Made by a program: the position numbers and the translations under genes
The notes under the pieces: generated by a model
Databases searched by the model: none
Seen by the model: the letters and a program-made list of their open reading frames with translations, nothing else
Told to the model about the DNA's origin: nothing
Assembly (NCBI GenBank): GCA_010692635.1
Contig: JAAHGL010000028.1
Coordinates: forward strand, 1-64,000
DNA: 64,000 bases
Origin: Symploca sp. SIO2C1
Lineage (GTDB): Bacteria; Cyanobacteriota; Cyanobacteriia; Cyanobacteriales; Coleofasciculaceae
Direction: 5' to 3'
Shown: positions 13,966 through 29,181 of the stretch, piece after piece
How the letters are laid out: the number at the start of each line of letters is the position of its first letter
Numbering within the stretch: the stretch's first letter is position 1

Positions 13966-16003
13966 TTACGTATAAGTCGTCTTCATCATCAATCTCCTCC
14001 TCCTCATTCAGGTCGGATACCATTTGAACCCACGGTTCGCTTGGTTGTGGGGTTTGTTCATCGTCTTCTTGATCTGACTCTGAAGGTTGTGTTTCAACAT
14101 TTTGCCAGTATTCAGGCTCAAGATACTCAGGGGGAACGTTAGCCTTAGTTGGTTCAACCGGATCGGGTTGTGGGAGCATAGTATCGACGAGCTGACCCGA
14201 TAGAGTTACCTTCCACAACCTCTCGACGGTAGGAGAGAGATAGAAACCAGTAAGCCCCCGTTCTCTGGTTGGTTCTGGGAGTCGCATAAGCTCATCAGGC
14301 ATAACGACCGGACGCTTCTCAAAATGCTCTGCATTGGCGAACGATGTTTTTCCATCTGAATGTGTTACGGTCTCTCTATATTCAATAAGCTCTCTATCGC
14401 CAAAGATGTTTTGTGTGACCCATTGAGCATCTTTTGGACCGCATTTGAAGATAGCCCAATTCTTTATCTGACCAAGTAAAAAGTCACCCTTATTTTCTCC
14501 GTAGGTATCGTGTACACCACTGATACCTTGAATGCCCAGAACGAGGGTAGCTCCCTTTGAATTGAGATTAAACAAAAGCCTATCTAAACTTTGACCAAGC
14601 TTTCCAAGTACCAGTACTTCGTCGAGGAAAAACCAGGTGCGCCCGATGTTTGTTCTATCTTTTGGCTCTGGTTTGTCACCGATGAGATCAACTATCCGCT
14701 GTATAAGAAACTGATTTACCTTCTTCATTGTGGAGGTATACTTATCTGATGAAGTGCCAAGGACAAGGGCATAATTACCTTGTGGATTTTCCGGTTTATC
14801 CCTCGCCCATTCGGTAAGACTTGTAGCACCGTTCTTTGTACGGAGATGTCGCCACGCTGTAGCAACTGTTTCAAGCTGACTGATTTGACTGCGTATAGTT
14901 GCCATTATTTCGGCACCACTTCTGGTTTCCCTGAAATATGCGTTAATAACATCTTGACCTGTACTTGTCAGCTCAAGCACTGCCCGTATTTTCTGAGGAC
15001 TTCTTAGAGTCTGAACTACGTCATAGAGATCCCAATCTTCATCCTTTTCTCTCTTCCGATAGATGTAATATATAAATATTGCTCTGAGAACATCTTGAGC
15101 AGAAAGGTAGAAGAACTTATTCTGTCCTGTTGCCTGCTGCTGTTTTTCAACAAAGAGCGCCGCCAATTCATCAGCGAGAGCTGGATCGGTACAATCTGCT
15201 GAGATATCCCAGGCGTAGGCACGATTATCAAAGGGAGATAATATCTTGTATGGTACTCCCATACCTTTGAGCAGAGGCACATATTCTGGTTTGTCGTCAT
15301 AAATCAGGGCACGAGTCTCAGGATTTTTTCCTATAAGAGGAAGTACTGACTTCATCAGCATCTTAAGGCTTAAAGTCTTACCTGACTTGTTAACCCCCAA
15401 AAAACAGTAGTGATTTGTATCTTGGATTCTTGGCAGATAGGCTCCTCCAAAGTAGGGACAACCCTCTTCTGTTCCTGATGATGATGTTTGCTCTTTGTCT
15501 GACATAGCTTGTACCTCTTCAACAGTTGTTTCTCTGAGACCTCGTAGTATATTTTCTTGTGAACTCTCTTGATGAGTTGGCAGAAAATCCCTCACCAAAA
15601 GAAAAGCGATAGGAGTGACGACAACTGCACCTATTAAGAACGCGAATTGATTTGATACCACCCCTTGTAGTAAAAAATAGGTTATTCCAAATGCTACAAA
15701 TGGAAAACAGAATAGAGCCGCTACTTGCGCGAGGAGAGAGAGAACTGTTTCCCACTTTTTCTGCACGAATGCAGCATTTATAGCTGGTAGATAGTAAACC
15801 TCGATGGCAATAATCCAAGCTATAGCCAAGAGCACCGTTGCCTTTCCCAGCAGGTTTCCTTGATTAAAGAAAGAGAGTCCAGCTTCGTTAAAAATAAGAT
15901 TGAGAATGGGGAGAGCGATCTGAGCGAGCAGAATCAGCAGAAATGTTGTAGCGCAGAGAACAACGAGCTTGGCTACTAACTCTTTTAGTAGATTTGTTTC
16001 CAT
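13910..16003 (-). CDS. Type IV coupling protein, TraD/TrwB/VirD4 family
   Basis: This 697-residue protein would be the conjugative coupling ATPase that links the relaxosome to the mating channel. The first 145 or so residues hold several TM helices. A P-loop G-V-N-K-S-G-K-T lies near residue 203 and a Walker B F-F-L-D-E-V near 461, with L-L-F-N-L-N-S-K-G-A-T-L-V-L-G-I-Q-G beyond, all typical of the TrwB/TraD ATPase fold. The C-terminal tail is long, acidic and Pro/Gln-rich, often a relaxosome-contact region. It is the last gene of the minus-strand run relaxase, small membrane protein, coupling protein. The last 56 bp overlap the convergent gene. Confidence 0.85.
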   Translation of the reverse strand: METNLLKELVAKLVVLCATTFLLILLAQIALPILNLIFNEAGLSFFNQGNLLGKATVLLAIAWIIAIEVYYLPAINAAFVQKKWETVLSLLAQVAALFCFPFVAFGITYFLLQGVVSNQFAFLIGAVVVTPIAFLLVRDFLPTHQESSQENILRGLRETTVEEVQAMSDKEQTSSSGTEEGCPYFGGAYLPRIQDTNHYCFLGVNKSGKTLSLKMLMKSVLPLIGKNPETRALIYDDKPEYVPLLKGMGVPYKILSPFDNRAYAWDISADCTDPALADELAALFVEKQQQATGQNKFFYLSAQDVLRAIFIYYIYRKREKDEDWDLYDVVQTLRSPQKIRAVLELTSTGQDVINAYFRETRSGAEIMATIRSQISQLETVATAWRHLRTKNGATSLTEWARDKPENPQGNYALVLGTSSDKYTSTMKKVNQFLIQRIVDLIGDKPEPKDRTNIGRTWFFLDEVLVLGKLGQSLDRLLFNLNSKGATLVLGIQGISGVHDTYGENKGDFLLGQIKNWAIFKCGPKDAQWVTQNIFGDRELIEYRETVTHSDGKTSFANAEHFEKRPVVMPDELMRLPEPTRERGLTGFYLSPTVERLWKVTLSGQLVDTMLPQPDPVEPTKANVPPEYLEPEYWQNVETQPSESDQEDDEQTPQPSEPWVQMVSDLNEEEEIDDEDDLYVITQPGLVITPDNLHSLDP

Positions 16004-16025
16004 GGCAGTAAAAGGAGTGACTACC

Positions 16026-16499
16026 TTATCTCAAATTCTGAAAATAGTTTTTTTTGCCTGTTATAAAGCTGTTATGGAATCTATAGGTTACATCGGCAGA
16101 GACAAGCCCTAAGAAACCCGCGATAAATGGAGGCAAGCCGACAGTTTCACGGAGTAAAGAATAGACAAAGAATCCGACGAGTGGCATTGCCAGCATCCCG
16201 AGTACCCACAACCCGAACCAAGAAGCGATTACCCGAACAACACTTTCATTTGAATTGAGGTGTGGTATTTCAGCAAACATACCGCTGACTGCGGCAAACA
16301 GAGGCAATACGAACTGTAGCGCATATGCCAATAACACGATTTGTAGGAGCATTGTATACGGCTGCCCGATAGCGTCTATAAATTCTCCCAAGATTTGCCA
16401 AAGTACAGAGTAGCTTATTGCAACGATAATGGGGGCACCAATAATGTTGAATAGATACTTGAATATGGTTAAATCACCATGCTGTTTGCGTTCTGACAT
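16026..16499 (-). CDS. Small polytopic membrane protein of the conjugation operon
   Basis: This encodes 157 residues with three or four hydrophobic helices: I-I-G-A-P-I-I-V-A-I near 19, L-L-Q-I-V-L-L-A-Y-A-L near 51, V-L-G-M-L-A-M-P-L-V-G-F near 98, and P-F-I-A-G-F-L-G-L-V near 123. The family is not recognised. A strong GGAGGAG ribosome-binding site precedes the ATG. It sits 12 bp behind the relaxase stop and 22 bp before the coupling protein, so it is surely co-transcribed with both. A role as accessory membrane factor in transfer is inferred from position. Confidence 0.65.
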   Translation of the reverse strand: MSERKQHGDLTIFKYLFNIIGAPIIVAISYSVLWQILGEFIDAIGQPYTMLLQIVLLAYALQFVLPLFAAVSGMFAEIPHLNSNESVVRVIASWFGLWVLGMLAMPLVGFFVYSLLRETVGLPPFIAGFLGLVSADVTYRFHNSFITGKKNYFQNLR

Positions 16500-16511
16500 A
16501 CTCCTCCAGGG

Positions 16512-19145
16512 CTACCGTTGGTGACTGCGTTGTTGTTCCTTTTGGTATGAAGCGCCCTGGTGGTGCGTTTTTTGAGTGAGGGAGAGAGCAAGTTCTTTGT
16601 TTTGCTCCTGCTGCATCTGTTTTTCGAGTTGTCTTAGTTCTGGTCCAGCAGATGCTTTATCGAGATAAAATCTGGTTTTTTCCTTTGCTCGTGAAGCTTG
16701 TACGTAGGTCATGTGCAGGTTTTGCATAGCGCCTCCTGCTAAGACGTAGGCATTTTTTTTAACAGTAATGCCTTGTCCCTTATGGGTTGTGATAGCATAA
16801 CCGAGCTTTATCGCATTGTAGCGTTTTAGGTTTAGCGTAACTACTTTTCCGTTATCGAGTTTGGCTGTTAGCTCATGGGTAAAGGGATTGAGCTTTTTTA
16901 CGATGCCAAGCGTTCCGTTTTCTACCCCGTATTCTCGTGAGTTTTTGGTAAACATGATGCGATCACCAACATAAAACTTCTCACTGTTAGCTTTGAGGTA
17001 GCCTTTAAGAGGTAGATACGATGCTTGGAGTCGAGACCGCTGTGCCTCGCGATTGAGGCTGGTTGCCTCCTGGTTTGTTCCTGCGATGATAAGATGTTCC
17101 TTTGGTTTTTTTGCTCCTCCCTGTTGCTCCCAATCAGCGATGAGTTTTTGCATTGCCTTATTTCGACTTTGGGCGACGGTAAGTAGCCCCCGTTTTTTGT
17201 ACTCAACGAGTGCCTGTTTTGCCTGTCCCTTTGAGAAGTGAAGAACTGCCTTCTTAGCCCACTCCTCTTTTTGCCTGAAGTTAGTTGTTAGTTCAGCAAA
17301 GCCGAGTCGTTGAGCAAAGTACCTAAATGGTCCCCCTGATTCAATGGGCTGAAGCTGATCCCAATCCCCGACTAATACAAGCTTGGCTCTGGAGCGTTGC
17401 GCTTCTTCTATCAGCCGAATCATCTGTCGAGTTCCCACCATCCCCGCTTCATCGACTACAATAACTGTGCGCTCATTCAGCTTCAGTGGTGAATGTTTCA
17501 CCAGTGGCTTAACTATCTTTTTGAAGGGCTTGGTGAGGGTATTTTTTATCTGGCGAGCGGTTTTGCTCTTATCAATTTCGTAGAGAAGTTTTTCGATAGA
17601 CATCGTGCTTTTGAATCCGCTGTCTTGTAGACCATTTGCTGCTTTTGCTGCTACTGCTGTGCCGATAACCTGATATCCTTCCTGTTCCCATGCAGAGCGT
17701 GCCGCCCCCAAGGTAAAGCTCTTTCCCGCACCAGCTCTTCCAGCGATGATCTGAATACTTCCGCTCCGCTCGGTCATGTGGCGCAGAGCCACCTCCTGGT
17801 CATGAGAAAGCTGTTTTCCATCAACTTCAAGTTTTCGTACCACCTTTGTTACCGTTGATTCCTTGACCTGATGGGCGTTATTGTGTTGCATGAGATCAAC
17901 AGCGGCGAGCATATTTTTCTCTATGGACAGCATCTCCTTGGTGGTGTACACGACCTCCTTTTCCGGTTTTTTCTGACGGAATACGTTGCGTTCAAGGCGC
18001 ACAACACGTTCTGAGCTAAGAAAATCTTTGACTCCATTAATAATTCGTTCAGCTCCGACTCCTGTTGTTTGCAGCTCTTCAGCGACGGCACGAATCAATG
18101 CCTGTTCAGAGAAGAAGCTATTCTTTGAAAGAAGACTTTTGTGGTCTCTATCTTCTGGGTTCCAGGTTGTAAGATTCTTGATAGTACTTGTTACCAGATT
18201 ATCCCGCTCTGTTTCAGCCTTAAGTACCTTCTCAAAGCGGTAGAGTAGCTTATAAGACTTAAAGCCATGCTCATCACACACCGTCTGCCATATTTTATAG
18301 AGTTCCTTGCGGGGGAGATGAGATTTTTTCTGCCTTGTCTCAACGGCAGCGGTTGCCGCCGCCTTTGCACTGAGCACCTGTCCATTTTCGCTGAGTAGCC
18401 CTCGTTGTTTAAGAGCTTCAAGAATCTCCTTGCGTCGAGTGGAAAATGCTTCAATGAGTGTGTCTGGGACTCCCTTAACCTCAAACCAAGTTCTCTTCTT
18501 GACCAGCTCTATACCGAGTCGATTCTGAAGTTGTTGTGCTAATTCAGCCCGGTAGAGTGCTCCCGCAGCCATTTTGAGTTGAAAGAAGATTTTACTCTCT
18601 AAGGCGCGTGTTTTTCCATCCTTGGTAACCCCGATATTTAAAATGAGAGCATGAGTATGCAGTTGGCAGTCCTGAGCGCGAGAAGTGAGATGTTCAAATG
18701 CTCCAATAACGAGGTGAGCCGCCTCATAAGTTTGTCCACCTTTGCCTCGTGCAACGACTGCATGTTCTTCCAAGAATGCGAGAGCTTTTTTCACCGCCTC
18801 AAGGTGGGCTTGTCGAATCTCTTGCTGTACATCTTGGCTGCTACTTGCCAGGAGTATGCTGACACTTTTAGGAGCCGAGAAAGTTGCATCCCATCCAGGA
18901 CGATGACTCCATTTCTCCGTTTTAATCCCTGCACTCTCTATGAGTTTTGTTGTGCCATCTGGAGAAAATCCATTGAAGCAGTGACGAAACTCCTCTTTGT
19001 TAATTTGCCCGAAGAGACCGAGTTTTTCTGCGCCCTTTCCTAGCCACTTACCTGGTGGTTCTCCGCCATTGATATAGTAGTCTTCCTGTGCGAGTTCGAG
19101 GTAGTAAAGCTCCTTTCCTCCACTCAATCCACCGATTGAAAGCAT
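16512..19145 (-). CDS. MobF-family conjugative relaxase-helicase (TrwC/TraI type)
   Basis: This is an 877-residue relaxase. The start at 19145 is chosen because MobF relaxases begin M-L-S-I and AAAGGAAAAA lies just upstream; the frame stays open 20 codons further. The N-terminal HUH domain has F-S-A-P-K-S-V-S near 90 and the metal-binding Q-L-H-T-H-A-L-I-L-N near 160. Tyrosine pairs near the start (Y-Y-L-E-L-A-Q-E-D-Y-Y) supply the nicking tyrosine. The helicase part has Walker A G-R-A-G-A-G-K-S near 468, V-V-D-E-A-G-M-V-G near 563 and T-T-H-K-G-Q-G near 785. It would nick oriT and unwind the transferred strand. Confidence 0.9.
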   Translation of the reverse strand: MLSIGGLSGGKELYYLELAQEDYYINGGEPPGKWLGKGAEKLGLFGQINKEEFRHCFNGFSPDGTTKLIESAGIKTEKWSHRPGWDATFSAPKSVSILLASSSQDVQQEIRQAHLEAVKKALAFLEEHAVVARGKGGQTYEAAHLVIGAFEHLTSRAQDCQLHTHALILNIGVTKDGKTRALESKIFFQLKMAAGALYRAELAQQLQNRLGIELVKKRTWFEVKGVPDTLIEAFSTRRKEILEALKQRGLLSENGQVLSAKAAATAAVETRQKKSHLPRKELYKIWQTVCDEHGFKSYKLLYRFEKVLKAETERDNLVTSTIKNLTTWNPEDRDHKSLLSKNSFFSEQALIRAVAEELQTTGVGAERIINGVKDFLSSERVVRLERNVFRQKKPEKEVVYTTKEMLSIEKNMLAAVDLMQHNNAHQVKESTVTKVVRKLEVDGKQLSHDQEVALRHMTERSGSIQIIAGRAGAGKSFTLGAARSAWEQEGYQVIGTAVAAKAANGLQDSGFKSTMSIEKLLYEIDKSKTARQIKNTLTKPFKKIVKPLVKHSPLKLNERTVIVVDEAGMVGTRQMIRLIEEAQRSRAKLVLVGDWDQLQPIESGGPFRYFAQRLGFAELTTNFRQKEEWAKKAVLHFSKGQAKQALVEYKKRGLLTVAQSRNKAMQKLIADWEQQGGAKKPKEHLIIAGTNQEATSLNREAQRSRLQASYLPLKGYLKANSEKFYVGDRIMFTKNSREYGVENGTLGIVKKLNPFTHELTAKLDNGKVVTLNLKRYNAIKLGYAITTHKGQGITVKKNAYVLAGGAMQNLHMTYVQASRAKEKTRFYLDKASAGPELRQLEKQMQQEQNKELALSLTQKTHHQGASYQKEQQRSHQR

Positions 19146-19158
19146 TTCTGTTTTTCCT

Positions 19159-19554
19159 TTAGTCGAGAGGTAAATTTTTTCGGCTCCACTGCTTGGCGAC
19201 TTCACGACACTTTTTTCTCAAATCTTCACATTTTGCTACCTGCTTTTGAGAAGCCCCTGGCTCTGGATCTGTTCGCTTTGGTACAGCGATCATTTCACTC
19301 AGCATTGCCTCTGCTGTGGTGATAAGATTGAGGTTTACTCGTGCAATCTCTTCTTTTACCTCTTGCAGTACTTGTTGTTGTTCTTCTAACTCTTGGTGGA
19401 GATTTTTTAGATCTTGCCTTTCCAATGCATCTATCACGAGCTTTTTGGCAAAGAGGTGTGTTCCCAAGTTTGATTCTTTTCCGAACCTTGTGAGTAGTTT
19501 GAGATAGCTAGATGGTAAGCGAAATTGAATGAGATTATCTTCTCTGGTCACCAT
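19159..19554 (-). CDS. Relaxosome accessory protein, RHH/coiled-coil
   Basis: This 131-residue protein precedes the relaxase with a 13-bp gap. The N-terminus I-Q-F-R-L-P-S-S-Y-L-K-L-L-T-R-F resembles the beta strand and first helix of a ribbon-helix-helix domain. A Q/E-rich coiled coil (L-H-Q-E-L-E-E-Q-Q-Q-V-L-Q-E-V) and a basic C-terminus follow. Size, position and layout match accessory proteins of MobF systems, such as TrwA, that bind oriT and help the relaxase. The family assignment is by analogy. Its promoter must lie in the candidate oriT region upstream. Confidence 0.65.
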   Translation of the reverse strand: MVTREDNLIQFRLPSSYLKLLTRFGKESNLGTHLFAKKLVIDALERQDLKNLHQELEEQQQVLQEVKEEIARVNLNLITTAEAMLSEMIAVPKRTDPEPGASQKQVAKCEDLRKKCREVAKQWSRKNLPLD

Positions 19555-19799
19555 AATTCCTTCCTAAAATAAAAGGCTTTCACCCCTGTATACAGCCTGA
19601 ATACTTTAGTTTCAGGAGTTTTCTATCTGCTTAATTTCTGTTTGTCGTACAGGGTGTGTACCCGTGAATTCCTTATCTTGTAAGGCTTTCTGTTGTTGCA
19701 CCACCTGTAAAGTAGACCCGCAGGGTCAGTCAGGTGTGCGCGAGTAAATCGCAGATTTACGAGCTCTTCAAGAGAGAAAAAACATAGGGGGTAAAAGTG
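19555..19799. other. Candidate oriT region with nested inverted repeats
   Basis: This 245-bp stretch lies behind the accessory protein and relaxase genes, the usual oriT position. It contains GGGT-GTGT-ACCC (19652-19663), GACCC-GCA-GGGTC (19715-19727) nested within CACCTG/CAGGTG (19702-19736), and GTAAATC-GCA-GATTTAC (19744-19760). No nic site could be identified by similarity. It also separates divergent transcription units, so promoters are here too. Confidence 0.5.
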
Positions 19800-20141
19800 A
19801 TGATTATGGATTACGAAGATGGTTTAAGGTACGGGGCTGTATTCGGCAGTATGATCGGAGCTGGAACAATGATTCTGATACCGATAATGACCGATTTTGT
19901 GAAAGGTGTTGGTAGTCGCCTGACTTCGCAAAAACGCAAAGGAGAACACGAGATCGGTGCGGCTGTTGTTGCGGTACTGCGTCAAGTTAGTACGCAGCTT
20001 GAAGATATAACCGATGTCGCAAAAACGCTGATCGAACATTCACGTTCTCGTTCTCAGAAATACGCTAAGAATCAGGTAGCGGAATCTCGGAAGCCACATA
20101 ACAAACACGCGCAACACATAAACGGTGCGGTGCAGGGATAA
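19800..20141 (+). CDS. Small membrane protein next to oriT candidate
   Basis: This encodes 113 residues. ATG 19800 follows AGGGGGT at good spacing; an in-frame GTG one codon upstream and an ATG two codons downstream are alternatives. A hydrophobic segment (V-F-G-S-M-I-G-A-G-T-M-I-L-I-P-I-M) at about 13-30 is followed by a basic stretch and an amphipathic helix (A-A-V-V-A-V-L-R-Q-V), then a K/H/S-rich tail. No family is recognised. As the first gene transcribed away from the oriT candidate it may be an early transfer or establishment gene, but that is inference from position. Confidence 0.5.
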   Translation: MIMDYEDGLRYGAVFGSMIGAGTMILIPIMTDFVKGVGSRLTSQKRKGEHEIGAAVVAVLRQVSTQLEDITDVAKTLIEHSRSRSQKYAKNQVAESRKPHNKHAQHINGAVQG

Positions 20142-20160
20142 ACGTCACATCATGACTCGG

Positions 20161-20230
20161 AGTTATCCACATTGTGGGAAATCTGGAGCCTATCAAAAGG
20201 GGCGGAAGATTTTCCATACTGTGGATAACT
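20161..20230. other. Candidate replication origin: inverted repeat with two perfect DnaA boxes
   Basis: TTATCCACA at 20163-20171 and TGTGGATAA at 20220-20228 are perfect matches to the E. coli DnaA box, in opposite orientation. They lie in a larger inverted repeat of 24 bp per arm (20161-20184 and 20207-20230) that matches at about 21 of 24 positions. The centre is a GC-rich 22-bp spacer. This suggests DnaA-dependent replication or a DnaA-controlled promoter. Confidence 0.55.
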
Positions 20231-20258
20231 CTCTCTGCATAATGACACAAATTTACGA

Positions 20259-20325
20259 GGAGAGGAAAGGATTAAAGATGCGAGATAGGAGGTAGTTCTC
20301 TGCGGTCTTTCCTCCCCTTTTTTTA
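20259..20325 (+). terminator. Imperfect hairpin followed by a T-run
   Basis: GGAGAGGAAAGG near 20259 pairs with TCTTTCCTCCCC near 20306, and TTTTTTT follows. The loop is long (35 nt). It could end transcripts from the oriT side before the J-domain gene. Confidence 0.5.
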
Positions 20326-20382
20326 AGAAGCCCGAAAGCATAGATGTATCGTGGCTTAAATATCAATAAGGGAGAAAATATC

Positions 20383-20877
20383 ATGATAAATTACTTTAAC
20401 GGAATAATCGGCGTTGAAAAAATTAAGACTCGATACCGAGAACTAGCTTTGCAACACCATCCCGACAGAGGGGGTAATCTCGAAACAATGCAGGAGATCA
20501 ACCGCCAGTATCATGAGCGACTTAAAGCAAGTGATAAATCAACTTCACGCGGTAGTAACGGCGAGTCGCACACGTATTACTATAATGAAGAGCGGGAAAC
20601 GATAGTAGCCGAAAAACTTGCGGAGGTTATCGCACGAAATCTATCCAATATACGCATTATGCTAGTCGGAACATGGTTATGGGTTGATGGTGAGACAAAG
20701 GCGGTGAAAGACCAGCTTAAAGAGCTAGGCTTTCGATGGCATGGGGAACGGGGAAAATGGTATTGGAATACGGGAAACTATCGGCGAGGTAGAAGCAATG
20801 CAGATTTCGGCACTATCGCCGCGAAGTACGGATACAAGGAGTACAATTCTGAAGAAAAGAAACGTATTTCTGCGTAA
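20383..20877 (+). CDS. J-domain (DnaJ-like) plasmid protein
   Basis: The product from ATG 20383 has 164 residues; this start has AAGGGAGAAA upstream, better than the in-frame ATG at 20344. A short J domain is seen as I-K-T-R-Y-R-E-L-A-L-Q-H-H-P-D-R-G-G with the HPD motif that stimulates Hsp70 ATPase. A second domain (V-G-T-W-L-W-V-D-G, G-F-R-W-H, G-K-W-Y-W, A-A-K-Y-G) is the one commonly found behind J domains in plasmid and phage proteins. It probably recruits the host DnaK to a plasmid process such as replication. The location 150 bp from the DnaA-box repeat fits that idea. Confidence 0.75.
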   Translation: MINYFNGIIGVEKIKTRYRELALQHHPDRGGNLETMQEINRQYHERLKASDKSTSRGSNGESHTYYYNEERETIVAEKLAEVIARNLSNIRIMLVGTWLWVDGETKAVKDQLKELGFRWHGERGKWYWNTGNYRRGRSNADFGTIAAKYGYKEYNSEEKKRISA

Positions 20878-20998
20878 AGAAAAAAAATAGCCAAAAATGC
20901 TTGACTTTAGCAACTGAAAATGGAACTATAAACCTGTTAGCGAAGCTAGCAAGTCGGGTGTAAACTAACCGTTCTTTTTGGCTTTCCGTCCTGTTGCC
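20878..20998 (-). other. Region after the tnpB-like gene; possible guide-RNA scaffold or element end
   Basis: In IS200/IS605 elements the guide (omega/re) RNA covers the 3' end of tnpB and the right end. This 121-bp segment has small hairpins, including TAGC-GAA-GCTA near 20939-20949, and no coding frame. No insertion-sequence end was recognised with certainty, so the guide RNA is a hypothesis. Confidence 0.3.
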
Positions 20999-22060
20999 TC
21001 AAGAAGCTTTCAGCAACGAACGTTCAGGCGAGTTTACTGTCGCCCCTAATAAATCTGTAGCACCACGAACATCAGCGAAGCATTCCTGTTTTTCATTACC
21101 CTTGACGAGTATTATAGGAACGCCAGCTATTCGAGCTTTGTACTCAATGAATTGCCTGAGCTGATAGAAACTCCAACTGTTTAGTCTTCGCTTCATAAGC
21201 TTAGTTTTTATTTCGGGGTTTGTTCTCTCCCTCACCCCTGTAAGCTCTTCAAGTGCCAGCATTGCGCCATTTTCCTTGGCTTTTTTCACTATGTCTGTAC
21301 TGATGTTGTGGTTAACGCCAGTAGCAAAGCGTCTTTCTCTCCTCGACAACCGTTTCAAGACTTTTCGGCAGTTACGCCGAGTAGTCCGTGTGCCTTTCGA
21401 GGCTTTTTTCTGTAAAGAGCGCCGTACTCTGGTGTAGCGGTCACGTACCTCCCTGAGCTTTGAACCGCTGTATACTTCCCCCGTACTAAGAGCAGCAATC
21501 GTTTCCAGACCGAACTTTACTCCGATAATCTGTTCTCCTGCAATGGGAGGGGAAGTAAGATATTTAACCTGGAGATTAATGTAATACTGGTTGCCTCGTT
21601 TTACAAGTGTTGCACTGGTTGGTTCTGTGCCCGTAAGCAGTTTTTTCTGATATTCCCCAATTTCTAGTCTCAAGCGCTCTCTGCCTCCGACGAGAGAGAG
21701 GCTTACTGTCCAGTCTTTTTCCCTGAATGATATAGTACGGGCATTGTAGTCAATGCTGGTTGGTCGAAATGTTTTAACTTGTTGCTTTCGCTCATGTGCC
21801 GATTTACGATTTGCCGCGACTCGCCCCAGAGCTGCGATAACGAGGTTAGAGTTGACATGTGGGTACTGCTCACGAAGCTGATGATAGATTGCTGACTGAA
21901 GTTTAAGCTTGTTCCTTACGCTTGGGTCAACGTCTGCATTGATGTGGCGACATACGTTACAGAAACCGTCCAGGGTTGCCTCTAGTTTTTCTCTCTGATT
22001 ATCAGTGACGGCAAGCTTGCACGATACGGTGAGATATTGTTCGTTGTTTGCGATTACCAT
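20999..22060 (-). CDS. TnpB-like protein with altered RuvC-I and no zinc finger (probably nuclease-dead)
   Basis: This 353-residue protein is a TnpB/OrfB relative: an N-terminal wedge-like region, then L-V-K-R-G-N-Q-Y-Y-I-N-L-Q-V just before the RuvC domain. RuvC-I normally reads G-[IV]-D-x-G; here it is G-V-K-F-G, with Lys182 in place of the catalytic Asp. RuvC-II is kept (L-A-L-E-E-L-T-G, Glu271). The four-Cys zinc finger expected between V-P-I-I-L-V and the RuvC-III Asp is deleted, leaving G-N-E-K-Q-E-C-F before A-D-V-R-G-A-T. The frame is otherwise full and undamaged. No tnpA is present. It may be a decayed transposon gene or a domesticated RNA-guided DNA-binding protein. Confidence 0.75.
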   Translation of the reverse strand: MVIANNEQYLTVSCKLAVTDNQREKLEATLDGFCNVCRHINADVDPSVRNKLKLQSAIYHQLREQYPHVNSNLVIAALGRVAANRKSAHERKQQVKTFRPTSIDYNARTISFREKDWTVSLSLVGGRERLRLEIGEYQKKLLTGTEPTSATLVKRGNQYYINLQVKYLTSPPIAGEQIIGVKFGLETIAALSTGEVYSGSKLREVRDRYTRVRRSLQKKASKGTRTTRRNCRKVLKRLSRRERRFATGVNHNISTDIVKKAKENGAMLALEELTGVRERTNPEIKTKLMKRRLNSWSFYQLRQFIEYKARIAGVPIILVKGNEKQECFADVRGATDLLGATVNSPERSLLKAS

Positions 22061-22136
22061 CCTGCTTGCCCCAGACTTTGCTTTTCTTAAAGCCCTTCAT
22101 ATTCATATCACATCTCGCACACTGATTCTATTGAAT

Positions 22137-22751
22137 ATGAGCCAGCATAATCTAAAGGAGAAGATTAATACTCTGTGCAATGAGATTCAGTCCACTTTGG
22201 TTCCTATTGAACTTCTAACAGTGGAGGAAAGTAAAGGCATAATTAAACGTTTTGTCGCGGCTACCGAAGGCAATTTTCAATGCTGGTTGGCAACAGCTTT
22301 GATTGCTTCACGTTCAAGTGATGTTCGTTCTACCGTCGAGAAAAATTTGCAGGTTGAAATTCAAGAAAATCATAGTTCAATGCTGAGGAAATTCGCCGTT
22401 AATGCTCATGCTGAGCCGGATGCAGTAGACTTTCGTGTGGTTTCTCAAGCTGTTGAACAAGTTCGTTGGCTTGTAGCTGAGTGTTCAGGACTAAAGTGTA
22501 TAGCTTTAATTGCCATGCTTGAAAGTGTTAGCTTTATCTATCCGTATCTGTCATCTCTTGCCAGAAAAGCCGGAAGTGATGATTTAACATACACAAATAT
22601 TCATGAAATTGAAGATCCTGACCATGCAGAGCAGTTCTCTAAAGCACTCTCTGACGAGATGACATTTGGATATAACAACCCTGAACAGGATATTGATGAA
22701 GTTATTTCAGTTCTATCAGATTTATATCGTTCGATATTTAGGTGTCATTAA
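22137..22751 (+). CDS. Heme-oxygenase-fold (HDO-like) iron-containing redox enzyme, tentative
   Basis: The product is 204 residues from ATG 22137. It is all-helical, with spaced acidic and His residues resembling the iron-containing redox enzyme family of heme-oxygenase-like diiron proteins: E-I-Q-E-N-H near residue 80, H-A-E near 94, A-M-L-E-S near 125, and N-I-H-E-I-E-D-P-D-H-A-E-Q-F near 160 that fits H-x4-D-x2-H. The ExxH element is not exact, so metal ligation is uncertain. Members of this fold act on small substrates such as amino or fatty acids. The gene is divergent from the tnpB-like gene with 76 bp between the starts, so they may share control. Confidence 0.5.
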   Translation: MSQHNLKEKINTLCNEIQSTLVPIELLTVEESKGIIKRFVAATEGNFQCWLATALIASRSSDVRSTVEKNLQVEIQENHSSMLRKFAVNAHAEPDAVDFRVVSQAVEQVRWLVAECSGLKCIALIAMLESVSFIYPYLSSLARKAGSDDLTYTNIHEIEDPDHAEQFSKALSDEMTFGYNNPEQDIDEVISVLSDLYRSIFRCH

Positions 22752-22822
22752 ATGGGTTATCCAAATTCAGTGGCATTGGATAATGGTTAAAAGGTTTGAA
22801 TTTTTGAGTGTGCATGAAAAAG

Positions 22823-22922
22823 CTACTGGTTTCCTAAAAAATCACTCTGATATACCTTTATCATCTTTTCGATGTCTCGAAGTTGTTTATCGCTAAATCT
22901 GAAGTTTCTCCTTAACTTTATC
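22823..22922 (-). pseudogene. C-terminal fragment of a DUF4160 gene
   Basis: Bases 22831-22922 are identical to 25436-25527 except at one position. In that copy they encode I-K-L-R-R-N-F-G-F-S-D-K-Q-L and so on to the end of a DUF4160 protein. Here only the C-terminal third is left, with no start and a replaced last few codons. It is a recent duplication remnant. Confidence 0.85.
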
Positions 22923-22979
22923 TACTGTTTTTTCTTTTTTAAGGAAAGGAGATCAATTCAGAGAATAGGTGAGCCGAGT

Positions 22980-23231
22980 TTACTTTTTGTTTTTTTGAAC
23001 GATTTTTTTCTTAAGAGAAGTTTCTTCAACCTCTTGTGCCATCATGTTCATAAACTCATCACCAGAGAGACCAGATAATCGCCAGAGCTTTACGAGTTTT
23101 TTGGCATTGAGAGATTCGGTTCGTTCTTCAAACGCAATCCATGCTCGCGTGTCTCCAAGTTCCATCAATTTGTACATTTCATAGGGATTCTTTTTGAGAA
23201 CTTTTTCCCTGATTTTTCTAATAAAATGCAT
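22980..23231 (-). CDS. Small basic hypothetical protein
   Basis: This encodes 83 residues. It is rich in K and E, with I-R-K-I-R-E-K-V-L-K-K-N-P near the front, D-T-R-A-W-I-A-F-E in the middle and a very basic tail. No family is recognised. The ATG is preceded by AAGGGA at good spacing. It is transcribed divergently from the RadC-like gene, and the palindrome ACACTATAGTGT between them may control both. Its 3' end is next to the DUF4160 fragment. Confidence 0.55.
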   Translation of the reverse strand: MHFIRKIREKVLKKNPYEMYKLMELGDTRAWIAFEERTESLNAKKLVKLWRLSGLSGDEFMNMMAQEVEETSLKKKIVQKNKK

Positions 23232-23250
23232 AATTTATCCCTTAAAATGA

Positions 23251-23281
23251 TTGACTACTGTATGTATTTACACTATAGTGT
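23251..23281 (+). promoter_or_regulatory. Sigma-70 promoter overlapped by a 12-bp palindrome
   Basis: TTGACT, a 17-bp spacer and TATAGT form a strong promoter for the RadC-like gene. The -10 box lies within the perfect palindrome ACACTATAGTGT (23270-23281), a likely repressor site. Confidence 0.7.
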
Positions 23282-23393
23282 TTTTATCACGTTAAGGGAA
23301 GACAACCTTTAACACAAACGAAAAAAGATGGAGTGAAGAAAGAGCTTTAGCTGGCCTACTTCCTCACCCCGAATCCAATAAAGGATAACTACT

Positions 23394-23912
23394 ATGATAG
23401 ATAATAATGTTTCCTGTGTCACTCAAAGAGAGGTTGTTAAACATGCCGCTGAAGTTCATTCATTCGAGAAGCAGTCAGAGACACTTCACATTATTAGAGA
23501 AGCTACAGTCCGTTATAGAAAACTCACTGCGGTAAAGCAGCAGATAAAAGGAGTCGAGGATGTTCCTTCACTTTTTTGGAAGCTTGTACGAAATAGAGTT
23601 CAGGAAAACTTCTGTGCATTTTATCTCGATACAGATCATGCGGTTGTTTCAGCATCGCTTCTCTTTTTGGGTACGGCGGATAAGGCTCAGGTACATCCTC
23701 GCGAAATATATCAGGTTGCTGTTCTCACTGGTGCGGTAGCAATTATCGTAGCTCACAACCATCCGTCAGGAAACTCTCGCGAAAGTAGTGCGGATCGGCT
23801 TATGACCAAACGGCTCAAGGAAGCTGGAGAGCTCTTAGGAATTAAGCTTCTTGATAGTATTGTGATCGGAGATCCTGATATCAATTCAGCTTTGAGTAGA
23901 GGGTGGTTGTAA
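23394..23912 (+). CDS. RadC-like JAB (MPN+) domain protein
   Basis: This is a 172-residue RadC-family protein without the N-terminal helix-hairpin-helix region of chromosomal RadC. The JAB metal site is visible as A-H-N-H-P-S-G-N-S near 121-129 with the Asp of S-S-A-D-R-L about ten residues on, plus the upstream acidic E-N-F of V-Q-E-N-F. Such short RadC proteins are very common on plasmids and genomic islands; the catalytic role (isopeptidase-like) is unproven. A strong promoter with palindrome lies 113 bp upstream, AAAGGA precedes the ATG, and a perfect terminator follows, so the gene is an independent unit. Confidence 0.85.
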   Translation: MIDNNVSCVTQREVVKHAAEVHSFEKQSETLHIIREATVRYRKLTAVKQQIKGVEDVPSLFWKLVRNRVQENFCAFYLDTDHAVVSASLLFLGTADKAQVHPREIYQVAVLTGAVAIIVAHNHPSGNSRESSADRLMTKRLKEAGELLGIKLLDSIVIGDPDINSALSRGWL

Positions 23913-23920
23913 TAAAAATA

Positions 23921-23964
23921 AAGGATGGTGGAGATCTTACCTATAAGGTCTCCACCGTCCTTTT
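23921..23964 (+). terminator. Rho-independent terminator of the RadC-like gene
   Basis: AAGGATGGTGGAGA pairs with TCTCCACCGTCCTT over 14 bp with one G-T pair, a 14-nt loop and a closing TTTT. It lies 8 bp after the stop codon. Confidence 0.9.
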
Positions 23965-24137
23965 AAGGGGGAGATGTTGCTGTCGTCCTGCTCAAGCGAT
24001 AAGTAGTTTGCAAGGGAAAATAACCTTATGTTGTGTTTTTCTGCTAAGAAAGAGTCATATTTTGTGTTTGCTTCATCTACGCGATGACTTTTTAGACAGC
24101 CTGGTACTTTTGGTCAGTGAACCCCAATTTTGCTTGT

Positions 24138-24452
24138 CTAAGCTCTCCGTTTTTGCTTTTCCTCTTCGTATTTCATTGCGTCTATCCCCGCCTCATAAAG
24201 AAATTCTGGGGCGATGTCAGCACCATTAGTCCAGACGATAGTTGAAGCGTCTTGGTCATATCTGAGTTGAGCAAATAGCTCTACATCTTTGAGTGGTTCA
24301 AACATTTCTCCTGTGAGTTGACTTTCCAAGTCAACGATTTTTACAGAACCATCTCGAAACCAGACCTTTACCTTATATTCTTCCAGGTACTCAGCATCTT
24401 CAACAATCCAGTGAAGTCCGTTATAGGGGCGCAATTTTTCTTGGTTGTTCAT
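24138..24452 (-). CDS. DUF2442 domain protein (copy 2)
   Basis: This 104-residue protein is a close relative of the one at 2500-2832: both share G-L-H-W, V-E-D-A, V-K-V-W-F-R-D-G-S-V-K-I-V-D-L and N-G-A-D-x-A-P-E-F-L-Y-E-A-G-I-D. It overlaps the upstream DUF4160 gene by 32 bp, so the two are translationally coupled. The tail is charged (E-E-E-K-Q-K-R-R). The function of the family is not established. The pairing three times in one window suggests a stable two-protein module. Confidence 0.85.
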   Translation of the reverse strand: MNNQEKLRPYNGLHWIVEDAEYLEEYKVKVWFRDGSVKIVDLESQLTGEMFEPLKDVELFAQLRYDQDASTIVWTNGADIAPEFLYEAGIDAMKYEEEKQKRRA

Positions 24453-24678
24453 TTTTCAAGCACCTTTTCCAATTTTCCAAAAGTTTGTCCTGATGTTCAG
24501 TCGCCCATCGCTTTACTATTCTTGCCAGTCGTGGGGGAAGTTCACCAGCAAGCATTGTACCCTCTTGGATAGACCATACAGATCTAAATCCCTGATAGTG
24601 AGCATGAAAATGTGGTGGCTCATGATCAAGTGGGTACATAAATATTTTGATTCCTAAGAATCGGCAGATCTCTGGCAT
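24421..24678 (-). CDS. DUF4160 protein (copy 2, intact)
   Basis: This 85-residue DUF4160 protein begins M-P-E-I-C-R-F-L-G-I-K-I-F-M-Y and has the family motif D-H-E-P-P-H-F-H-A near residues 18-26, Y-Q-G-F near 28 and L-P-P-R-L-A-R-I-V near 49-57. The His-rich motif could bind metal or act in catalysis, but no activity is known to me. It is the intact homologue of the interrupted copy at 2798-3055, with the same length and overlap. An 8-bp inverted repeat just upstream (24697-24725) may be its operator. Confidence 0.85.
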   Translation of the reverse strand: MPEICRFLGIKIFMYPLDHEPPHFHAHYQGFRSVWSIQEGTMLAGELPPRLARIVKRWATEHQDKLLENWKRCLKNEQPRKIAPL

Positions 24679-24696
24679 TTATTATCCCTAAAATGT

Positions 24697-24725
24697 AGCT
24701 GTCTAACCAAGAACGTCAGACAGCT
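24697..24725 (-). promoter_or_regulatory. Inverted repeat AGCTGTCT / AGACAGCT upstream of DUF4160 copy 2
   Basis: A perfect 8-bp inverted repeat with a 13-nt spacer lies about 20 bp before the DUF4160 start on the minus strand. It could be an operator bound by a cassette product, or a terminator-like hairpin of the upstream gene; no T-run follows. Confidence 0.5.
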
Positions 24726-24857
24726 TGGATAATAAGTTATGAAAAAGCAATCTTTTTTGAGCAACTTTAGTCTGTTTTTTTTAGCCAACCCTGCCACTTT
24801 ATTGAACAGATGAGGAATGCCGCCTGACACGACACTCCTTACCCTGGTAATTAAGCG

Positions 24858-25052
24858 TTAACTCTTATCTTCATCTGTTTTGACCTTCTTGAACTGTCTG
24901 GCAATCTGCCATCCATTATTCACCAAAACAACAGAACAACTAACTGCTTGGAGCCAGGGCAAAGTCTTGAGTAGCTGCTGTTCAAGATTACCACTATTGA
25001 AACCAAGTGAAAGACTCATAAAGAGTGCTGAAAAATTGCCAATCTGAAACAT
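24858..25052 (-). CDS. Very small hypothetical protein
   Basis: This encodes 64 residues. The first half is hydrophobic (F-S-A-L-F-M-S-L-S-L-G-F) and a second hydrophobic run (W-L-Q-A-V-S-C-S-V-V-L-V) is followed by a basic end, Q-F-K-K-V-K-T-D-E-D. It could be a small membrane protein. No clear ribosome-binding site is present and no family is recognised, so the gene is uncertain. It lies between two DUF4160-DUF2442 cassettes on the same strand. Confidence 0.35.
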   Translation of the reverse strand: MFQIGNFSALFMSLSLGFNSGNLEQQLLKTLPWLQAVSCSVVLVNNGWQIARQFKKVKTDEDKS

Positions 25053-25153
25053 TATTTATTTTCCAAATTTTGTTATTTCTAGTAAGCCCTGTATTTTCTG
25101 TATTTTTATATGTGCTATAACGTAGAAGTCGAGACCACTTTTGTCTTGTTCTC

Positions 25154-25429
25154 TTAAGATTTTTTGTATCGAATGAGTTGAGCCTGTTTTGCTTCTTTAA
25201 TGAGACCGTAAATGGTAATATCTTCATCTAATTCTTCCCAATGAATCCCAATGCCGAGCTTATCTACCTCCCACTTGGCAAGCTGTTCATCTGTTGCTTG
25301 AGCAAGCCGAGGGAATCGACTGCGAGAAGTCGGGATAATGGTTCCATCATCAAGGATGACCTCGAAGGTTTCAGGAGTAAGAAGGATATCAACGACTTTG
25401 TACGAACAATCAAGTGCTGAAATATTCAT
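25154..25429 (-). CDS. DUF2442 domain protein (copy 3, different subfamily)
   Basis: This 91-residue protein belongs to the second kind of DUF2442 proteins: F-E-V-I-L-D-D-G-T near residues 23-31, P-R-L-A-Q-A-T near 39-45 and G-I-G-I-H-W-E-E-L-D-E-D-I near 60-72. It is not closely similar to copies 1 and 2. It overlaps the DUF4160 gene upstream by 20 bp. The C-terminus is basic. Together with the RHH gene upstream it forms a three-gene unit; function is unknown. Confidence 0.8.
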   Translation of the reverse strand: MNISALDCSYKVVDILLTPETFEVILDDGTIIPTSRSRFPRLAQATDEQLAKWEVDKLGIGIHWEELDEDITIYGLIKEAKQAQLIRYKKS

Positions 25430-25646
25430 GCCATTTTCCTAAAAAATCACTCTGATATACCTTTATCATCTTTTCGATGTCTCGAAGTTGTTTATCGCTA
25501 AATCCGAAGTTTCTCCTTAACTTTATCGGCTCGATTTCAAAGACAGCCTCACAACCACTTTTCTTGACATGAACATGAGGTGGTTCATGCTCATCACTAT
25601 AAAAACTGAATTTATATCCTTTGACTTCAAGTAATTTAGGATTCAT
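25410..25646 (-). CDS. DUF4160 protein (copy 3)
   Basis: This 78-residue DUF4160 protein has the family motif D-E-H-E-P-P-H-V-H-V near residues 18-27 and ends D-F-L-G-K-W-H-E-Y-F. It differs clearly from copy 2. The last third of the gene is duplicated at 22831-22922. It lies 27 bp behind an RHH antitoxin-like gene and overlaps the DUF2442 gene, so the order is RHH, DUF4160, DUF2442. That order would fit an autoregulated toxin-antitoxin-like operon, but toxicity is not shown by sequence. Confidence 0.85.
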   Translation of the reverse strand: MNPKLLEVKGYKFSFYSDEHEPPHVHVKKSGCEAVFEIEPIKLRRNFGFSDKQLRDIEKMIKVYQSDFLGKWHEYFST

Positions 25647-25673
25647 TTTTGGGATGACCTTTTATTAACACCC

Positions 25674-25847
25674 CTAATTTGCTGGTGTTTTTTTGTTTCC
25701 CTTCTGCTCCTTGCGACGTTTGATGTCTTCTCTAATAAGGGTGCGTACATATTCACTTGGGGTACTGTAGTGGTCTGCTTCTACCACGGTCTCCACCTTC
25801 TTTTTGAGAGCTTTAGGGAGTGAAATATTCATGGATGTCATGTTCAT
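25674..25847 (-). CDS. ParD/CopG-like RHH antitoxin (orphan)
   Basis: This small protein has a typical ParD-type ribbon-helix-helix: M-N-I-S-L-P-K-A-L-K-K-K-V-E as strand and helix one, then Y-S-T-P-S-E-Y-V-R-T-L-I-R-E-D as helix two. A very basic, Lys-rich tail follows. Three ATG codons (25847, 25841, 25832) and an upstream TTG are possible starts; the RHH itself needs only the last. ParD normally precedes a ParE toxin, but here the next gene is DUF4160. Either the toxin was lost or DUF4160/DUF2442 took its place. Confidence 0.7.
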   Translation of the reverse strand: MNMTSMNISLPKALKKKVETVVEADHYSTPSEYVRTLIREDIKRRKEQKGNKKTPAN

Positions 25848-25883
25848 AAGGGAGAAGTTATCATCACCTCCATTAGTTGTCAA

Positions 25884-26464
25884 TAATTGGCAGTTATTGA
25901 CAGCGATGCTATTCCTTTATTCTCTGTTTAGATGGGGTTAGAGTGAGGTTGGAACGAAACCGCTTGCAGGATTTAAGGCGGTGTTTTGCTCAGGCAAATT
26001 GCAAACATCTCTCAAAGTCTCCCCTGCACCAAGTGATGTTTCCCATTTGTTCCTGAAACCTTATGGTGAGTTTTTTGTTTGTAGACAATTTACCATTGTC
26101 TTGCAAATAGAGCAGTAGTTGCGATATGGGCTTAACAGATAGAGTGACGTGTAATGGGTATTTCGCTATGTAACTTTCTATTTCTGGTGTTCAGAAATTT
26201 AATCAAAAATACTTTAAAAATTGGCTTAGCTAAGCTATTACGCTATTCGGTAATACTTACAATGCGCAAAGTCTATAAGCGTTTATTCTCGTTTTTTTGC
26301 TTTTAATGTAAGAGATTTTAATAGCCAAAAGCTAGGCGAAATTAAGCCATTTTTTAGTTTTGCTCTCCTGACACGGATACCTTTTGACCAGTCGCCACAT
26401 CTCAGAATAAAACGCTGACACACAACCAAGGGCGCTTTTCGTTCCTTTGCTCAGGTTACCCCTA
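25884..26464. other. 581-bp intergenic region, no gene seen
   Basis: All frames are broken here. I see AT-rich segments near 26190-26330, no T-run terminator and no clear promoter pair. It separates the cassette region from yjbQ and might be a boundary between accessory and core sequence. Confidence 0.4.
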
Positions 26465-26881
26465 CTACTCCCCATAAATTGTCACCACAATTTTTCGTTG
26501 ACGTGGCTTAATATCACATTCGAGGTGAAAAATTTGCTGCCAAGTTCCTAACTCTAACGAGCCATTCTTTACTGGTACGGTTAGCGAAGGTCCCAACCAA
26601 GTTGCTTGCAAGTGAGAATGCCCATTGCCATCGTGCCACATTTGCTCATGTCCATATTCCCGACTTGGTGGAATCAGCTTATTTAAGATTTCGGGTAAAT
26701 CCCTTTGTAATCCGGGTTCAAACTCAATCGTACCAATAGATGCTGTACTGCCAATATTAAAGATGTGAACCATTCCTGTCTTGATGCCAGAGTTCTGGAC
26801 GATCGCATTTACCTTACCTGTAAGGTCATGCATATCTCCATGATTTTTCGTAGAAATTTGGATTTGCTCCTGATGAATCAT
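26465..26881 (-). CDS. yjbQ: YjbQ / UPF0047 family protein (secondary thiamine-phosphate synthase-like)
   Basis: The start at 26881 gives 138 residues, the usual family length; an upstream in-frame ATG would add 14 unconserved residues. The family pattern is clear: N-I-G-S-T-A-S-I-G-T-I-E near 45-56, H-S-H-L-Q-A-T-W-L-G-P-S near 88-99 and L-G-T-W-Q-Q-I-F near 112-119. The relatives have a low thiamine-phosphate synthase activity in E. coli, but the main role is unknown. The conserved His and the trimeric fold suggest a metal site. This is normally a chromosomal gene, which makes it noteworthy beside plasmid-type genes. Confidence 0.9.
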   Translation of the reverse strand: MIHQEQIQISTKNHGDMHDLTGKVNAIVQNSGIKTGMVHIFNIGSTASIGTIEFEPGLQRDLPEILNKLIPPSREYGHEQMWHDGNGHSHLQATWLGPSLTVPVKNGSLELGTWQQIFHLECDIKPRQRKIVVTIYGE

Positions 26882-27030
26882 AAAACCCGACGCACTGCAT
26901 GATCGCAACGACTCACATCCCACTATAGATTACAGGGCTTACACTTTCTTAGTGAAGTCTCGCAAAGCTTTCAGGCTGTTGCCGGACAAGATAGAAAATT
27001 CAATTTTAGGGAATGGAAATAATAGTTTCC

Positions 27031-27258
27031 TCAGCTGGACGCTTCGCTCAAGGGTGCTTGAGCTAAATCACGGATCAGTGGAAGTTTGGAATGAAGATAA
27101 GCTCTGATACTCGAAATATCATCTACATCCAGCCAGGTTTCCCGCTCCAATCTCACAAGAAGCTGTTGAGCCAGTTCTGCATCACTCAGTCGTAGAAGTG
27201 TACTGATTTGCATGGCTTCAATTAAAGACCAAAATTGTCGTAAAGCTGAAATAGTCAT
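27031..27258 (-). CDS. Small conserved cyanobacterial hypothetical protein
   Basis: The product from ATG 27258 has 75 residues; GGAG lies 9 bases before it. It is alpha-helical, with I-S-A-L-R-Q-F-W-S-L-I-E, L-L-R-L-S-D-A-E-L-A-Q-Q-L and a final L-I-R-D-L-A. I recall similar short proteins in many filamentous cyanobacteria, but I have no function to offer. It stands alone between YjbQ and a gene-free stretch. Confidence 0.6.
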   Translation of the reverse strand: MTISALRQFWSLIEAMQISTLLRLSDAELAQQLLVRLERETWLDVDDISSIRAYLHSKLPLIRDLAQAPLSEASS

Positions 27259-27273
27259 GATTAAACGCTCCAC

Positions 27274-27678
27274 CCCAACAATGTTTTATGCGCTCATAGA
27301 CAAGCTGTCTTACATTAGCCTACACCCAAATCTTAAGAAAATCTTAAAATATTAATGGAGGAAGTCGGGTTATTGACATAACTTGATGCAAGTTAACAAA
27401 CTGCAAAATTCCTCTGTATCTGGCATTGAGCCTGGAGATGGACATAGCATTTGGAAGAGCTGGCAGTTATGCTGCTCAGGTTAATGAGGCGCAAGGGTAT
27501 CAGAAAGTATAACTTTAGAGACAATATAGGCACACTGTCCGTGGGTGAGCGAAAAAATGGTTGGGGGGAGGAGTTAGGTTAGCGCTCGATACACGCTACT
27601 TGATGCAGGGATGGACTTTGAGAGATGTTTGCAATTGAGGAGAAAACTCATGGACAGCGGTAAGCGTTATTGCACGAA
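27274..27678. other. 405-bp intergenic region, no gene recognised
   Basis: No supported gene is present. A short plus-strand frame near 27420-27510 (A-F-G-R-A-G-S-Y-A-A-Q-V-N) looks protein-like but has no start signal and is too short to assign; it may be a relic. Confidence 0.4.
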
Positions 27679-27954
27679 ATGAAGAGAGTGATGCTCACCT
27701 ATCAGGTTGAACAGTGGAAGAGTGCTCGGTGGCAACGGGACGATCGCTTTTATTTGTGTGAGGTGAAGGAGGATCTCTGGAGTAACTGGTTGGTAATGAG
27801 GCAGTGGGGCGGTGTAAGCTCTGGTAGATGGGGAGCAAAGGAGACAGTGTGCAATAGTTTTGCAGAAGCCGAGGCACTTTTTGATGCAGTCGCCAAACGT
27901 AGGGAGAAGAGAGGATATGTGTTAGTGGAGCAAAAAACGGCGAAGGAGAAATGA
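27679..27954 (+). CDS. WGR domain protein
   Basis: The 91-residue product is essentially one WGR domain: R-F-Y-L-C-E-V, then L-V-M-R-Q-W-G-G-V with the W-G core, G-R-W-G and a C-terminal helix F-A-E-A-E-A-L-F-D-A-V-A-K-R-R. Tyr and Trp residues match the fold that in PARPs and bacterial proteins binds nucleic acid ends. ATG 27691 is an alternative start with AAGAGAG upstream. It is a stand-alone domain, a form common in cyanobacteria. Direct binding to DNA or RNA is expected from the family but unproven. Confidence 0.8.
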   Translation: MKRVMLTYQVEQWKSARWQRDDRFYLCEVKEDLWSNWLVMRQWGGVSSGRWGAKETVCNSFAEAEALFDAVAKRREKRGYVLVEQKTAKEK

Positions 27955-27970
27955 GCCTGGTAGGTTTTTA

Positions 27971-28013
27971 CTATAGTGCAATTTTGCGATAGTATATTTG
28001 TACTGCACTGTAG
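27971..28013. repeat. Inverted repeat CTATAGTGCA / TGCACTGTAG
   Basis: A 10-bp imperfect inverted repeat (one mismatch) with a 23-nt spacer follows the WGR stop. It could be an operator for the Rpn gene downstream or a weak terminator. Confidence 0.45.
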
Positions 28014-29157: not shown

Positions 29158-29181
29158 CCTCATGTCTGATTGTTTAACCTC

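Follow-up and report, generated by a model that had tools for sequence, protein, structure and literature searches.

A stretch of 64,000 nucleotides from the cyanobacterium Symploca sp. SIO2C1 (assembly GCA_010692635.1, contig JAAHGL010000028.1, positions 1 to 64,000; hereafter the window) encodes a TnpB protein that has lost a catalytic residue and its zinc finger, and that is probably a new, independent TldR-like RNA-guided DNA-binding regulator acting on conjugation. TldRs are TnpB-like nuclease-dead repressors, associated with fliC in enterobacterial prophages and with csrA in gut commensals (PMC13418256); the TnpB-derived RNA-guided repressors described in the literature searched regulate flagellin genes and come from phages and gut bacteria. 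We consider it likely that the protein of the window, which we call dTnpB, is a domesticated TnpB, unable to cleave but still binding its own omegaRNA, which would direct it to DNA that is left uncut. It would be a regulator of TldR type, with one origin in cyanobacteria, that travels on MobF conjugative elements. The features of the protein are as follows.

20999-22060, minus strand: dTnpB, nuclease-dead TnpB of 353 aa, with Lys182 at the RuvC-I Asp position and no zinc-finger/TNB block
21515-21517, minus strand (read 21517-21515): codon AAG of Lys182, placed at the RuvC-I Asp position by alignments
21070-21106, minus strand: short linker at the former place of the zinc finger, about residues 319-331 (alignment; PF07282 absent)

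The open reading frame (ORF) begins with ATG and runs through 353 codons without a stop, undamaged as the initial annotation had it, and its product belongs to the TnpB family (NCBIfam NF040570, guided_TnpB, 125.7 bits for a cutoff of 100). In the alignment, its RuvC-I motif reads IIGVKFG, with Lys182 where relatives carry Asp, versus GVDxG, GIDxG or GCDxG in all of the approximately 55 aligned relatives except dTnpB and two orthologues; the Asp is kept, wherever the position is readable, in these relatives and in more than 60 further loci (the two sets partly overlap). The DED triad of an active IS200/IS605-type TnpB nuclease is thus broken by Lys182, with the RuvC-II Glu (LEELTG, E271) and the RuvC-III Asp (FADVRG, D330) retained in the alignment. 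The zinc-finger block of the relatives (YTSQTCxxC...CxxC) is replaced by LVKGNEKQECFAD, about a dozen residues, and Pfam PF07282 (Cas12f1-like TNB domain, a zinc ribbon), which matches all three ordinary relatives tested, gives no match in dTnpB or either orthologue. Both lesions had been read correctly from the window alone. With the metal-binding Asp and the zinc finger lost, cutting should be abolished. Binding is another matter: an AlphaFold model made from 42 sequences has a mean pLDDT (predicted local distance difference test) of 82.6; in blocks of ten residues, values up to residue 270 mostly lie at 79-97, and a disordered tail takes the place of the zinc finger. Among solved structures, Foldseek puts it closest to complexes of Cas12f and TnpB, one of them the nuclease-dead Cas12f 9n9c. 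The prediction is thus of an intact fold for nucleic-acid binding, WED, REC and RuvC included, with a cutting site that is not intact, so that binding of RNA and DNA should remain.

A whole-genome search of the class recovered two orthologues that have also lost the zinc finger, in Nodosilinea sp. FACHB-131 (NZ_JACJOF010000042.1) and Leptolyngbya sp. FACHB-60 (NZ_JACJOX010000077.1), the contigs being identified in a scan of GTDB genomes. They share 53% protein identity with the window copy and both read GVALGM at RuvC-I, with Ala in place of Asp, so that the Asp has given way to K in one branch and to A in the other, across three genomes of two cyanobacterial families. The lesions proposed as characters to be shared by orthologues in a conserved context are indeed shared as far as the zinc finger, the missing Asp and the context go; the substitution to Lys is not. 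In a tree with 44 ordinary relatives, the three proteins group in a single clade, with support of 100/99, that is nested with TnpB proteins of IS type, the window copy being a long branch, and the clade has a long history after the loss of the nuclease. The reading frames are open in all three. Between the two close orthologues, nonsynonymous divergence (dN) of tnpB is 0.044-0.047 and synonymous divergence (dS) 0.23-0.29, hence a dN/dS of 0.15-0.21, near that of the neighboring DnaJ-like gene at the same two loci (dN 0.053-0.058, dS 0.26-0.34, dN/dS 0.16-0.22), which implies purifying selection after cutting was lost. The inactivating changes, the clade, the synteny, the selection and the guide-RNA scaffold described below are established by computation. 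No orthologue with an intact Asp and zinc finger was found in the same context, and the lesions that the orthologues share, their synteny and the low dN/dS lead us to reject a single decayed copy. At the sensitivity used, no further dead members appeared among genomes of the order (391), of the Nodosilinea order (65) or of the class (390), and none came from IMG/VR or from records of phages and plasmids; the pattern scan of GTDB genomes gave no dTnpB strains beyond FACHB-131 and FACHB-60.

The 3' end of the gene retains the elements of a guide RNA.

20960-21037, minus strand: omegaRNA scaffold (covariance-model match, fold, orthologue alignment)
20940-20959, minus strand: predicted guide ACCCGACTTGCTAGCTTCGC, the end of the scaffold being set by ordinary elements ending in GTTTAC and by the orthologue alignment

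Ordinary elements present in several copies have TCA at their left flank and end on the right with GTTTAC, after which unrelated DNA, the guide, begins. The C-terminal coding region of ordinary copies contains an in-frame hexamer whose reverse complement is exactly the terminal hexamer, and the two co-vary in five versions (GTAAAC/GTTTAC, 22 copies; GTAAGC/GCTTAC, 15; GTAAAT/ATTTAC, 5; GTAACC/GGTTAC, 4; GTAAGG/CCTTAC, 1); no such pair was found in 17 ordinary copies. We built a covariance model, R1, from 28 aligned ordinary (nuclease-intact) scaffolds alone. In their consensus structure, 95.6% of cells are paired and 11 pairs show changes in both partners, a result reached by none of 500 shuffles and none of the slid versions; the score of the closing helix is partly obtained by construction, because this helix served to select the 28 scaffolds, and helices 2-4 were not used in selection. 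R1 has a single match in the window, at 20960-21037 on the minus strand (full model length, 41.6 bits, E 8.3e-9), and a single one in each orthologue locus (37.9 and 36.0 bits); with filters off, the runner-up around dTnpB (20500-22500) scores 9.3 bits. The guide-RNA scaffold has therefore been retained in all three. It comprises a closing helix GTAAAC/GTTTAC, two inner hairpins and a GAAAG linker, and overlaps the 3' end of the ORF, like in ordinary TnpB. In the dead clade it measures 78-95 nt, versus 95-143 nt in the ordinary copies measured. The two orthologue scaffolds show eight differences, four of which fall at paired positions, and pairing is kept in all four. Folded as one piece, the 261-nt 3' region shows no unusual stability (z -0.57), the structural signal being the conserved scaffold and not raw folding energy. 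Rfam was also tried for a known RNA family at this 3' end and yielded a chance match only, to a microRNA family far below its cutoff. The initial annotation had reported neither a tnpA nor a clear transposon end. No tnpA is adjacent to dTnpB, as stated, yet the right end is there at full length in the form of the scaffold. A left-end motif was not found upstream of the gene, with a search that detects just 15 of 54 ordinary copies.

The neighborhood of the gene bears out that it lies on a conjugative element, as 13910-19205 encodes a coupling protein of TraD type and a TrwC/MobF relaxase.

13910-16003, minus strand: TraD/TrwB-type coupling protein (synteny and profile searches)
16512-19205, minus strand: TrwC/MobF relaxase-helicase, 47-50% identical to the relaxases of the orthologue elements
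19159-19554, minus strand: small relaxosome-accessory-like protein, gene 1 of the mob operon (synteny)
19729-19738, minus strand: candidate target, CAC (possible target-adjacent motif, TAM) followed by ACCTGAC, upstream of the mob operon and conserved with the orthologue loci
19797-20141, plus strand: small ORF resembling a membrane protein, beyond the candidate target, with a similar MDYxDGxRxG start in one orthologue contig (contig A)
20344-20877, plus strand: DnaJ-domain-like protein, convergent neighbor at all three dTnpB loci, 59-62% identity
22137-22751, plus strand: divergent ORF with its ATG at 22137 and a weak haem-oxygenase-like match (PF14518)

The three loci share one order: dTnpB convergent with the DnaJ-like gene, an intergenic control region, the small accessory gene (whose product has no match in Pfam or NCBIfam), the MobF/TrwC relaxase and the TraD-type coupling protein. 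The DnaJ-like gene matched 2,646 records, 2,196 of them conjugative, and a homologue lies near a type IV secretion system DNA-binding gene and transfer genes on an Acinetobacter MOBF plasmid. Being so common on conjugative plasmids, it is probably part of the plasmid backbone, beside which dTnpB has settled. The genes on the far side of dTnpB, including the divergent ORF, differ between the three loci. This ORF does start 76 bp from dTnpB, as had been noted, but its description as an enzyme is weakly founded, PF14518 scoring 22.3 bits, under its cutoff of 28.9.

The guide itself is conserved in its first part only. After GTTTAC, the alignment reads ACCCGACTTGCTAGC in the window and ACCTGACGCATT(G/A)TTC in the orthologues, so that the first seven nucleotides are kept as ACCYGAC across approximately 50% protein divergence and the following bases diverge. 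In ordinary copies the guide stretch varies freely. For an Enterobacter TldR, the seed has been placed at guide nucleotides 1-6 (PMC13418256). In both orthologue contigs, the first ten bases of the guide recur after CAC upstream of their own mob operon, a coincidence reached by 14 of 20,000 random 10-mers of an orthologue contig within the 300 bp upstream of the operon; this figure is moderate and not decisive, because the 300-bp region was picked after the match was seen. When the three upstream regions are aligned, the window carries the block CACACCTGAC unchanged at the equivalent position (19738-19729, minus strand), in the same orientation to the operon and approximately 175 bp upstream of it, and the motif is absent upstream of the relaxase in a related element without dTnpB (45% relaxase identity). 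These upstream regions also contain a palindrome-like CTGTAWACAG, seen in the window (19500-19800), in the compared relaxase element L255 and in orthologue contig A, where it reads ATGTAAACAG; it is possibly an operator or an element of the origin of transfer (oriT).

It is conceivable from these data, and we put it forward tentatively, that the guide brings dTnpB to the relaxase operon's oriT/promoter region, providing RNA-guided control of conjugation for its own element or for related elements sharing the site. Several observations weigh against this or against the broader proposal. The window guide mismatches the candidate target at position 4 (C in the guide, T in the site), within the 1-6 seed of the Enterobacter TldR (PMC13418256). 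The candidate target is preceded by CCAC or GCAC, unlike the TCA found left of ordinary copies. The orthologue genomes carry a chromosomal leader family with TCA+ACCTGACGCA. Finally, just three dTnpB members are known, two of them close relatives.

The leader family is one ground for an alternative that we regard as rather unlikely: an RNA-guided regulator that acts when the element arrives in a new host and is aimed, instead of at its own transfer region, at a chromosomal target of that host or at a plasmid or phage in competition with it. TCA+ACCTGACGCA, that is, the ordinary left-flank triplet and ten bases of the guide, occurs in the 5' leaders of a small-gene family, in five copies, in the two orthologue genomes (Nodosilinea and Leptolyngbya). 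In conjugation, leading-region genes usually sit on the intergenic side away from the relaxase operon, and this would be the side occupied by dTnpB and the DnaJ-like gene. However, the same leaders are found in same-genus genomes without dTnpB and are not matched by the window guide. Searched in the whole window genome (16 nt, up to 3 mismatches), this guide gives 65 matches versus 45 for the reversed pattern and no clear target, and its best match with a TCA flank lies inside a kinase gene. A repeated 5' leader, GGAGAAATCAACCTGACGCAGCA..AAGAGGGTTGGCAA, was observed before small genes of Nodosilinea-group genomes (L221, L224, L242, L245 and G266:C37:93834).

Other explanations dispense with the target or with the function altogether. 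It is doubtful that dTnpB has a guide-independent function, for instance as an autoregulator binding the 3' end of its own mRNA or as a partner of the DnaJ-like protein. The conserved convergent DnaJ-like gene and the location of the scaffold within the 3' end of the mRNA would fit such a role, but the DnaJ-like gene is on many conjugative plasmids without TnpB, and conservation passes from the scaffold into the exact length of a guide seed, something needless for a guide-free protein. Even less probable is a pseudogene-like relic, an inactive TnpB persisting by drift or hitch-hiking with the scaffold as a leftover. The loss of a catalytic residue and of the zinc finger, the lack of an intact transposon and the long branch of the window copy could all be read in this way; still, a dN/dS of 0.15-0.21, open frames in all three members, a scaffold whose pairing is retained and a seed and neighbors conserved over approximately 50% protein divergence are hard to reconcile with drift. 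Lastly, a CRISPR effector of Cas12f or Cas12u type, as profile and fold matches to Cas12f might suggest, is highly improbable, for no array was found at 15000-29900 (no direct repeats of at least 20 nt within 200 bp), the guided_TnpB match is better and over its cutoff, the 3' scaffold is of TnpB type, and the protein nests among IS-type TnpBs in the tree.

Returning to a TldR-like regulator, the expression of the RNA, the binding of DNA, the target and the repression are inferences drawn from the layout of the locus and from what is known of TldRs, and can be assembled as follows. The guide RNA would be processed from the 3' end of the gene's own transcript, or dTnpB would bind to that end; dTnpB would keep the scaffold (20960-21037, ending in GTTTAC) along with a guide starting with ACCYGAC, which would lead it to a DNA site with a matching seed. 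Without the RuvC-I Asp it would open the DNA and hold it uncut, and we propose that the DNA so held would be blocked for RNA polymerase or for relaxosome proteins. The most likely target would be the element's own control region, with CAC-ACCTGAC lying between the accessory-relaxase-coupling operon and the small divergent gene; dTnpB bound there would keep the transfer genes from being transcribed and/or the relaxosome from assembling at oriT.

This has to be compared with the known systems. Apart from the match to a target, the features of TldRs that sequence can reveal are found here: membership in the TnpB family, an inactivated RuvC site, a scaffold retained beside the gene with a conserved guide start of seed length, and departure from the mobile transposon into stable linkage with non-transposon genes, in this case the DnaJ-like gene and the mob operon in three genomes of two families. 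The suggestion of an independent cyanobacterial example of the TldR type, with a putative role as a regulator, gains support from the orthologues, their context, purifying selection and the scaffold. Unlike TldRs, dTnpB comes from cyanobacteria, where MobF conjugative elements carry it alongside a DnaJ-like gene and the relaxase operon; it has lost the RuvC-I Asp alone (Glu and the third Asp are kept) plus the whole zinc finger; and it has no link to flagellin or CsrA, its target being a candidate. No cyanobacterial or conjugative-element TldR-like member was found in the literature searched, although the supplementary trees of the original TldR paper may mention one. The nuclease-intact cyanobacterial TnpBs (IS200/IS605-type or IS1341-type; L007, L040, L171-L181) are 39-51% identical to dTnpB over the alignment and share its scaffold plan with a closing helix of GTAAAC/GTTTAC type, but in these GVDxG and CxxC...CxxC are retained, and a genome contains several copies, whose guides vary and whose ends are defined, with TCA at the left flank and GTTTAC at the right end. 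Dead Cas12f (dCas12f, PDB 9n9c/9n9m) and Cas12m (type V-M, with an altered RuvC site; PMC10442227) have the small Cas12/TnpB fold and RNA-guided DNA binding without double-strand breaks, as predicted for dTnpB. The comparison with 9n9c is as a structural match only, and Cas12m is a CRISPR effector, whereas dTnpB has no array and a single guide of its own in a TnpB-type omegaRNA.

If this interpretation is true, TldR-like proteins arose independently in cyanobacteria, where conjugative elements carry them and plasmid transfer is their likely field of action, and the same route, in which the cutting site is lost and the guide RNA kept, has been repeated in a new setting. It would also provide a compact natural repressor with a guide-RNA scaffold backed by a covariance model.

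Elsewhere in the window, two adjoining AAA_35 proteins are encoded on the minus strand at 3736-9338, an NTPase with WD40 repeats and a second protein with a helix-turn-helix domain. Two neighboring pairs of overlapping small ORFs (24138-24678 and 25154-25646, minus strand), which we take to be possibly of DUF4160/DUF2442 type, have upstream ORFs that resemble each other, at approximately 80 aa and with the motif DHEPPHFHAHY/DEHEPPHVHVK. On the plus strand, a single ORF of 6,379 aa (29975-49114) contains Calx-beta, DUF4114, Ig-like domains (He_PIG, Big_9) and many RHS repeats, and is a giant surface or RHS-type protein. Further on lie a PAPS-reductase/DndC/SspD-like protein (56058-57026, plus strand) and a large protein whose second half gives HerA-like matches (59841-62969, minus strand), possibly parts of a defence system.
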